The notes under the pieces are model-generated. The model had not been told where the DNA came from. It worked only from the letters and a program-made list of their open reading frames with translations, and made no database searches. From Paracoccus marinus (GTDB lineage: Bacteria; Pseudomonadota; Alphaproteobacteria; Rhodobacterales; Rhodobacteraceae): a stretch of 64,000 nucleotides of DNA. Numbering within the stretch: position 1 is the first letter of the stretch; the number at the start of each line of letters is the position of its first letter. The stretch covers positions 124,001 to 188,000 of the forward strand of contig NZ_VJYZ01000018.1 of assembly GCF_007018965.1 (NCBI RefSeq). The letters run 5' to 3'. The position numbers and the translations under genes are program-made. Of this stretch, positions 21,057 through 25,397 are shown in pieces.

Positions 21057-22448
<1,392 letters not shown>

Positions 22449-22512: not shown

Positions 22513-23085
22513 TCACTCGGGAACGGCAAGCTTGACCTTGCCCGATACCAGCGCGCCGTAGCCGCCAGCGTCCAGCAGCTCCTGTTCCTCGGGCGTCGAT
22601 TCGCGCCCCAGCGCGGTGTTGCGCCACGGAAAACGGCCGAACCGCGCAATGGTGTCGCGGTGCATCTGCGCGTGCAGCAGGTTCTCGCCCGGCATCCGTT
22701 CGGAAAACAGCGCCACGGCGCGGTCCTGCAGGGCAAGATCCTCGGCATGCTCGAACGGCATGTAATAGAACTGCCGCGCGGGTTCCGGGGTCTGCAGGTC
22801 GTGCCCCGCCTCGATGGCCGCGCCCGCGATGGACACGGCGAGCGGATCGGTCGCGAAGGACCGGCTGTCGCCCCGGAAAATGTTGCGCGGGAACTGGTCG
22901 GTCAGGATCAGCGAGGCCAGTGTCCCTTCGGGCGTCCCGGCCCATTCGCGGGTCAGTTGCCGCGCGTCCTGCCACGCCGACTGAAAGCGCGCGCGGACCT
23001 GTTCGTCCAGGCCGTCGGACTGCTCGTACCAGCCCTTGGGACCCACGTCCTCAAGCCAGAAGCGGTTGATGTCGTCGGGGGTCAT
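22513..23085 (-). other. internal start: DUF924 domain could be made separately (190 aa)
   Basis: Within the fused frame, AGGGAGAG lies about eight bases before an ATG whose 190-codon product is exactly a full-length DUF924 protein. In the other two frames stops occur right here: one TGA overlaps this ATG as ATGA, another sits six codons upstream. This is what two formerly separate overlapping genes would leave. Confidence 0.5.
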
Positions 23086-24342
23086 GCGGAACTCTCCCTC
23101 AGGGTGGATGGTGGGTTCGCCGGCCTCGGACAGCGCGGTCTCGACGGCGAGGGTGGTTGCGGCGGGCGACAGCATCGCGAAGGCGCCGGTATCCGCGACC
23201 TGGGGCGAGGCGCGGCGCGTCATGCGCCAGGCGGCATAGCCGGACAGCGCCAGCAGCAGGACGCCCATGTAGGCCCAGAAGCCGTCGGGCCCCATCGCCG
23301 CCATCAGCCACGCGGTGACGATCGGGCCGAAGAACGATCCCGCCCCGTTGATGAGCAGCAGCCCCGCCGACCCCGCCGCCATGTCGGACGCGTCGAGGAA
23401 GTCGTTGGTATAGGCGATGAGCAGCGAATAGGTCGGGTTCGCGACCCCGCCCAGCAGCGCGGCGGCCAGCAGATAGCCCCAGATGCCGGTCTGGAACGCG
23501 AACACGGCGACGGTGATCGCCGCCCCGAACAGCGCCATCGTCATGATGAGGACGCGGCGGTCGGTGCGGTCCGATGCCCAGCCGATCGGATACTGGCAGA
23601 TCAGCCCGCCAAGCCAGATCGCGGCGACAAAGGCCGACACGTCGCGGACGTTCATCCCGATCACCGATCCCCAGACCGGCGACATGCCCTGCAGGGCCGC
23701 GAACACGCCGCCCATCAGGAAGATGCCGACGCAGCCCAGGGGGGACGCGCGGAACAGCCTGCGGATGCTCATCGGCGCGATCGTCTCGAACCTTGGCGCG
23801 GGGGTGGTGGCCAGCAGCATCGGCGTGAACGCGACCGACACCAGGACCGACGGGATGACGAACAGCACCCAGCCGCCCGGATCGCCGAAGTTCATCAGGA
23901 ACTGCGCGCTGACCAGCCCCAGCATCTGCACGATCATGTAGGTGGACATGGTCAGGCCGCGATTCTCGTTCGTGGCCCCGGCGTTGAGCCAGCTTTCCGC
24001 GACGATGTAGACGCCGCAGAAGCAGAACCCGATCAGGAACCGCAAGAGCGCCCAGGCAAGCCAGTGCGGCATCGCCGCATACAGGACCAGCACGGCCGAG
24101 ATCATGGACGCGAGCGCCGCGAAAACGCGGACATGGCCCACGCGCTGGATCAGCCCCGGCACGGTCCGGCTGCCGACGACGAAGCCGCCGAAATAGCCCG
24201 CCATCACCAGCGCCATCAGGCCGGTCGGGATCCCCTCGATCCCGCCGCGCACGCCCAGCAGCGTGCCCTGCATGCCATTGCCGACCATCAGCAGCATGAT
24301 GCCCAGAAGCAGCGGCCAGCTGGAGCGGACGACGGTCAGCAT
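22513..24342 (-). CDS. MFS transporter fused in frame to a DUF924 domain
   Basis: One open frame of 609 codons encodes two things that are normally separate. Residues 1 to about 400 form a 12-helix major facilitator of the YcaD-like type, starting [20 protein letters not shown], with the [19 protein letters not shown] block near residue 105 and SDRTDRR in the central loop. Residues about 420-609 form a complete DUF924 protein ([67 protein letters not shown]). The linker [12 protein letters not shown] contains a usable ribosome site and ATG for the second part. It overlaps queA by seven bases. It may be a real fusion or the result of a lost stop. Confidence 0.85.
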
Positions 24343-25397
24343 GCGGCGTCCGGGATCAGAAGCGAGGCGTCGCCGTAGCTGAAGAAGCGGTAGCCGCGTT
24401 CGACCGCGTGGGCATAGATGCGGTCCACCAGGTCCTTGCCCATCAGCGCCGACACCAGCATCAGCAGGGTCGATCGGGGCAGGTGGAAGTTGGTCATCAG
24501 CGCATCGGTCACGCGGAAGCTGTAGCCGGGATAGATGAAGATTTCCGTGACGGCGTCGTAGGGGTGGACGGTTCCGCCCGCATCCGCCGCGCTTTCGATC
24601 AGGCGCAGCGCGGTGGTGCCGACGGCGACGACCCGCCGCCCTTCGGCGCGGGCGGCGTTGATGGCGTCGGCGGCCGTCGCGTCCACGATGCCGCGTTCGC
24701 CGTGCATCCGGTGGGTGGTCACGTCATCGACCTTGACCGGCAGGAAGGTGCCCGCGCCGACATGCAGGGTAACGGTGGCGAAGCGCACGCCCATGTCGGC
24801 CAGGCGGTCAAGCAGCGGCTGGTCGAAATGCAGGCTCGCCGTCGGGGCGGCGACCGCGCCGGACGTGCGGGCCCAGACGGTCTGGTAGTCGGTGCGGTCC
24901 TGGTCGTCGGGCGCGCGCAGCGCGGCGATATAGGGCGGCAGCGGCATCGCGCCGACCCGCGCCAGCGCCTCGTCCAGCGCCGCGCCGTGAGTGTCGAAGC
25001 GCAGCGTCAGGTCGGTGTCGGACATCGCGTCCACGACCGCCGACAGCGTGTCGCCGAAGCGCACCGTCTCGCCCGCGCGCAGCTTGCGCAAGGGCTTTGC
25101 CAGGGCGCGCCAGTTGCCGCCGGGGGTGGGTTCCAGCAGCGTGATCTCCACCTTCGCGGTGGCCTCGCCCTGCGGCGTCGCGCGGGTCCGGCTGCCGGTC
25201 AGGCGGGCGGGAATGACGCGGGTGTCGTTCAGGACCAAGAGGTCGCCCGCCCGCAGGAACCGCGGCAGGTCGGCGACGGTCGCATCCGTCATCGCGTCGC
25301 CCTGCGCCACCAGCAGCCGCGCCGCCGTGCGCGGCCGGGCCGGGCGCGTGGCGATCAGCCCCTCGGGAAGGTCAAAGTCGAAATCGGACAGGCGCAT
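24336..25397 (-). CDS. queA: S-adenosylmethionine:tRNA ribosyltransferase-isomerase
   Basis: Transfers the ribosyl moiety of AdoMet to 7-aminomethyl-7-deazaguanine in tRNA to form epoxyqueuosine. The 353-residue protein shows the family blocks: [19 protein letters not shown] at the start, [33 protein letters not shown] in the middle, and [19 protein letters not shown] near the end. Start at 25397 gives the standard MRLSDFDF beginning. It lies 31 bases after gph and overlaps the transporter gene. No tgt is adjacent. Confidence 0.97.

Follow-up and report, generated by a model that had tools for sequence, protein, structure and literature searches.

A single gene in the window (the whole 64,000-nt stretch of Paracoccus marinus DNA analysed here) joins a major facilitator superfamily (MFS) transporter to a DUF924 protein in one uninterrupted frame, within which the DUF924 start codon of unfused relatives persists together with a strong Shine–Dalgarno (SD) sequence. 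On balance we favour, from comparison of sequences across relatives, the reading that this is a genuine fusion whose one mRNA yields both a membrane-tethered fusion protein and a free DUF924 protein. The broader proposition, that such dual-product genes arose repeatedly, in three or more Paracoccus clades and perhaps also in two further genera, and that selection has preserved their internal start, we hold more tentatively, as plausible rather than probable. The features concerned, in order of transcription, are as follows.

24336–25397, minus strand: queA, upstream neighbour, its end overlapping the start of the MFS gene by 7 nt (ATGCTGA)
22513–24342, minus strand: fused MFS–DUF924 gene, 609 codons plus stop (ORF and Pfam)
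23215–24342, minus strand: MFS transporter part, residues 1–376 (Pfam, NCBIfam and structure model)
23086–23214, minus strand: MFS C-terminal tail and linker, residues 377–419, mostly disordered in the model
23092–23099, minus strand: putative internal SD, AGGGAGAG, including GGGAGAG (23098–23092), duplex energy −7.8 kcal/mol
23083–23085, minus strand: internal ATG, in frame, aligned to the codon at which unfused relatives start DUF924
23082–23085, minus strand: ATGA, its TGA out of frame here, equivalent to the stop/start overlap in several sister species
22561–23070, minus strand: DUF924 domain (PF06041), residues 425–594 (Pfam)
21057–22448, minus strand: lpd (dihydrolipoyl dehydrogenase), downstream neighbour (ORF list and NCBIfam)

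The 609-aa frame opens with ATG and has no internal stops (ORF listing, 24342–22513), and its two parts are each recognized by Pfam: MFS_1 (PF07690) at E 2.3e-21 and 76.6 bits against a cut-off of 33.4, and DUF924 over the entire profile (positions 1–180 of 180; residues 425–594) at E 7.4e-55 and 186.3 bits against a cut-off of 27. The top NCBIfam match of the MFS part, over residues 2–351, is PRK03633 (named ‘MFS transporter’), which we take to be the YcaD model; at 86.1 bits against a cut-off of 361, the MFS part falls outside that equivalog. In the AlphaFold2 model of the fused protein (mean pLDDT 86.1, pTM 0.70, 62 sequences) the MFS body extends to residue 376 in eleven long helix runs, the last of which (318–376) is able to hold two; this is consistent with twelve transmembrane segments, and the model is compatible with the 12-helix transporter originally proposed. 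Foldseek matches of this body are MFS folds including G6PT1, NorA and MdfA, and it can be assigned to the MFS. The linker is unstructured in the model (residues 387–401 and 406–417 at pLDDT <50), and from residue 422 on an all-helical domain is modelled confidently; Foldseek aligns the DUF924 part to 2i6h (Atu0120) at E 3.7e-09, with a TM-score of 0.92 by target length, an rmsd of 1.4 and 45% identity, and the same entry is its sole significant PDB sequence match (E 1.1e-41). The original prediction, made from this DNA alone, of one 609-codon frame in which a complete MFS transporter is followed by a complete DUF924 protein is thus borne out by ORF, Pfam and AlphaFold2. As MFS transporters have both their N- and C-termini inside the cell, a tethered DUF924 domain would face the cytoplasm. 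A 572-aa open frame also lies opposite the fused gene (22660–24378, plus strand); we regard it as most likely a coding shadow due to high GC content.

The gene sits in a conserved neighbourhood: across 80 named loci, queA lies upstream in all 80 and lpd downstream in 79 (in the remaining one the contig ends), with DUF924 between them or absent. The 7-nt overlap of queA with the MFS start (24336–24342, minus strand) has counterparts in several Paracoccus loci, L080, L081, L083 and L087 among them, where the QueA match also passes the MFS start, and the queA–MFS–DUF924 run may be coupled translationally throughout. Conserved closeness to queA is no evidence for a role in queuosine metabolism.

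At the join itself, the linker codons on the minus strand read ATC CAC CCT GAG GGA GAG TTC CGC ATG ACC. A second TGA starts 16 nt upstream of the internal ATG, and the two TGAs occupy the two non-coding frames, confirming the earlier observation of stops in both other frames at the join, one of them as ATGA. None of the other 25 in-frame Met codons examined in this gene has an SD as strong as that of the internal ATG (−7.8 kcal/mol); with the ATG aligned to the start of unfused relatives, the anticipated ribosome site and ATG at the normal DUF924 start are both present.

Across Paracoccus, we surveyed the junction in 124 of 125 genomes, leaving out G132, where the match lies at a contig start. 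Ten are open through the join, 60 carry adjacent but separate pairs, and 54 have no DUF924 beside the MFS gene, the last class including G017, which stops at a contig end and is uninformative. The suggestion that the fusion might prove a widespread and real architecture therefore stands in part: fusion is found in no fewer than three Paracoccus clades and, outside Paracoccus, in two genera, yet with 10 of 124 Paracoccus loci it is a minority state. Of the 60 separate pairs, 37 have their genes in different frames and 23 share a frame that a stop interrupts, approximately the one third in phase expected by chance; this gives no sign of programmed readthrough of an in-frame stop in the relatives, and we set that reading aside. 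Within a set of 37 Paracoccus genomes (36 relatives plus the source genome), twelve have no adjacent DUF924, and 11 of these carry a distant DUF924 elsewhere (40–47% identity), as if one DUF924 lineage had replaced another in Paracoccus without the adjacent gene; a search of G017 (71% complete) found no DUF924. Loci lacking DUF924 beside the MFS gene include L012, L017, L020 and L022–L025. At L212 (G135) and L137, DUF924 lies 1267 nt downstream of the MFS gene, compared with a gap of 99 nt in the sister genome G006 (L031), and the two genes have apparently been parted by an insertion.

Beyond Paracoccus, 60 loci from other genera of the family, selected non-randomly (40 with long open frames and 20 without), comprise 55 adjacent but separate pairs, three loci without DUF924, and two fusions (G232 and G395), so that other genera hold at least two fusions among the matches listed. 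Open-frame length was rejected as a sign of fusion, with two of 40 loci fused at >600 without a stop and none of 20 at <600. In 11 of the 12 fused genomes (several of them only 84–90% complete) no DUF924 was found apart from the fused gene, which is therefore probably the cell's source of DUF924. The fused set includes some MAGs (L103, L146 and L158 as named copies), and G029 has a frame break inside the MFS part.

The ten Paracoccus fusions form at least three clades. In a tree of the MFS part (residues 1–385, 142 rows, with G017 omitted as too short), they fall into clade A (the source genome G000 with G061, G028 and G136; support 97), clade B (G029, G019 and G014; support 99) and the remaining G021 and G027/G131, whose union branch has support 0. 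A single origin of all ten is rejected by 70.6 log-likelihood units (p-AU 0.00488, for a group chosen after the tree was seen), and no unfused member falls within clade A or clade B. The distance from a conserved Trp codon to the ATG is 144 nt in all four clade A genes, and sisters in the alignment have other Trp–ATG lengths and another phase. Among the nine sisters of clade A, four overlap as ATGA (G020, G128, G137 and G068), four have a +2 nt spacing (G033, G013, G105 and G002, the last, L010, having its ATG at gap +2 and a phase assigned by hand), and the remaining one, G101, combines an in-frame stop with a gap of 42 nt. The next outgroup contains G133, with an ATGA overlap, and G090 and G079, whose gaps measure 179 and 211 nt. 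Because the constant clade A length differs from the sisters in both length and phase, a net change of +1 (or −2) nt would most simply have made the clade A fusion. For clade B and for G021, G027 and G131, loss of the stop in an in-phase pair may be as likely, since the unfused genomes nearest to them either have a spacer or lack the gene. The comparison of the join with close relatives that had been proposed therefore returned two genes in the sisters and a shared open join throughout clade A, and it supports the idea of a scar left where a small indel or stop loss fused coupled genes: eight of nine sisters overlap or are spaced by +2, and in the fused clade a net length change of about 1 nt brings DUF924 into the MFS frame and leaves the ATGA in place out of frame.

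If only the fusion protein mattered, the old DUF924 start would be expected to decay. The homologous start Met is retained in nine of the ten Paracoccus fusions (in clade B, that of G029 and G019 was read off the aligned letters); the exception, G014, has another Met 3 codons further with an SD of −5.6. Duplex energies are −7.8, −11.4, −7.2 and −2.5 kcal/mol in clade A (the last being G136), −10.6, −5.6 and −4.9 in clade B (G014 −5.6, G029 −4.9), and −11.3, −11.2 and −7.6 in G021, G027 and G131. Their mean of −8.0 compares with −2.3 across 231 internal Mets elsewhere and −2.7 across 5692 codon positions, and not one of 20,000 random draws reached it, whichever control set was sampled; unfused ATG-started DUF924 genes average −8.3 (n = 56). 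These fusions are related within clades and so are not ten independent cases, and the linker SD could be an inheritance from the unfused ancestor rather than a product of selection. Such repeated retention of the internal start was unforeseen in the original prediction.

These data bear directly on the strongest alternative, that only the full-length fusion is made and relevant, with DUF924 solely a domain of the transporter and the internal ATG and SD as relics. It accords with the frame and fixed length common to four genomes, with the lack of unfused members in clades A and B, and with the loss of the homologous start Met in G395 and G014 and the poor SD of G136. We nevertheless consider it the less likely account, as the Met is retained in nine of ten fusions and an SD of −7 kcal/mol or stronger occurs in seven of ten, against about 1% (about 2 of 231) of other internal Mets, and as G232 and G395 also carry a strong-SD ATG near the boundary (−7.7 and −10.6), though at a codon other than the homologous one. 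The G395 gene (L236) is a 40%-identical fusion from another genus in which the homologous DUF924 start Met is gone; its ATG (SD −10.6) lies in the inter-domain tail, 27 residues upstream of the FW motif. G136, which has the weakest internal SD, is also the one genome among the 12 with a fusion in which a second DUF924 gene was found, a pairing that is suggestive at n = 1; in G014 and G029, also with weak SDs, a second DUF924 was not found.

Evidence that the fused frame is itself kept is mixed. Fitted to all unfused pairs (leaving out G002, G135 and outgroup states), the rate of phase change is 55.8 per amino acid substitution per site (95% interval 9.3–148), at which the chance of clades A, B and G027/G131 all staying in phase is 6e-5, or 0.0017 at the low end of the rate (G021, having no within-clade branch, is outside this product). 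At the sister-clade rate of 0.80 (0.04–4.46), the probability of clade A being this stable is 0.59, or 0.089 if the upper bound is taken; that clade A has kept its frame is thus ordinary at the sister-clade rate, and retention is unlikely only when set against all unfused pairs, so that we do not use this test as main evidence. The linker has pN below pS in all 12 within-clade pairs, as expected if it is translated; its pN is above that of either domain, two clade A pairs give a pN/pS of approximately 1, and part of the native MFS tail is counted in the linker.

A second alternative is that joining the frames is close to neutral: the two proteins would still act separately, the internal start would supply free DUF924, and the read-through form would be tolerated or cleaved in the linker. 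The internal starts do have SDs as strong as those of unfused DUF924 genes, fusion occurs sporadically (10 of 124), the frame retention of clade A cannot be told apart from that of its sisters, and the linker is disordered and variable. This reading is the more doubtful of the two, however, as every member of the fused clades lacks a stop or frame change at the join and all 12 pairs show a linker pN lower than pS, although the latter stems partly from the native MFS tail. Finally, a sequencing or assembly error at the join, an option raised in the original prediction and allowed by the draft state of the source genome (3.13 Mb in 38 contigs), is refuted by the identical open join and length in three other Paracoccus genomes (MFS identity 79, 81 and 94%), the closest being P. 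aeridis JC501 (L087, the same locus as that of G061), and we give it almost no credence.

We therefore return to the dual-product fusion as the best explanation. Under it, ancestral neighbouring MFS and DUF924 genes, ordered queA–MFS–DUF924–lpd and probably translationally coupled, would have undergone a net indel of about 1 nt near the old ATGA overlap that placed DUF924 in the MFS frame. Ribosomes from the MFS ATG would then continue to give a 609-aa protein with DUF924 tethered at the transporter C-terminus, and some ribosomes would probably begin at the retained SD and ATG to give a free DUF924 of approximately 190 aa. The sequences themselves show the open frame, its presence in four genomes, its origin from an overlapping pair, its recurrence and the retention of start and SD; we infer both that the two products are made and that the fused protein has a function. 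When the same pair of genes has fused more than once, this is generally read as a sign that their products work together. If the explanation is true, DUF924 is placed physically at an MFS transporter, and such a link to the inner membrane would offer a lead to the role of an uncharacterised family. The species also form a natural series (spaced, overlapping, fused with a strong start, fused with a weak start) in which one could test how bacterial genes fuse while keeping a free second protein.

Among known systems, full-text literature searches, with subscription papers mostly outside their scope, returned no paper under DUF924, PF06041 or COG3803, and no match to a combination of queA, major facilitator, DUF and Paracoccus. 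The closest likeness is the unfused Rhodobacteraceae pair in queA–MFS–DUF924–lpd, which shares genes, order and DUF924 start signal with the fused gene but has two frames or an in-frame stop, mostly with a 40–130-nt spacer or a short overlap, where the fused gene has one frame. Adjacent unfused orthologues occur in relatives and the fusion is nested among them, as in a fusion of neighbours; a survey of frame transitions likewise describes genes adjacent in one genome that may be fused in another (PMC3711429). For the two halves, Atu0120 of Agrobacterium (2i6h) offers a solved structure of a similar DUF924, and is a separate, presumably soluble protein that its entry title calls functionally uncharacterised, whereas here the domain belongs to a transporter fusion; PRK03633 transporters are the best NCBIfam match of the MFS part, at a score far below the family cut-off (86 against 361 bits). 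Overlapping, coupled gene pairs are, according to one study, enriched for subunits of complexes (PMC10666635), which by analogy fits MFS and DUF924 touching; the short overlap resembles that of the sister species, and in the fused gene the stop is gone and the frame continues. As for the mechanism proposed here, in-frame second starts in bacteria have been mapped as N-terminal proteoform pairs (PMC11005335), and these similarly give two products from one frame; what would set the present gene apart from those pairs is that its short form was formerly a separate gene, newly enclosed.
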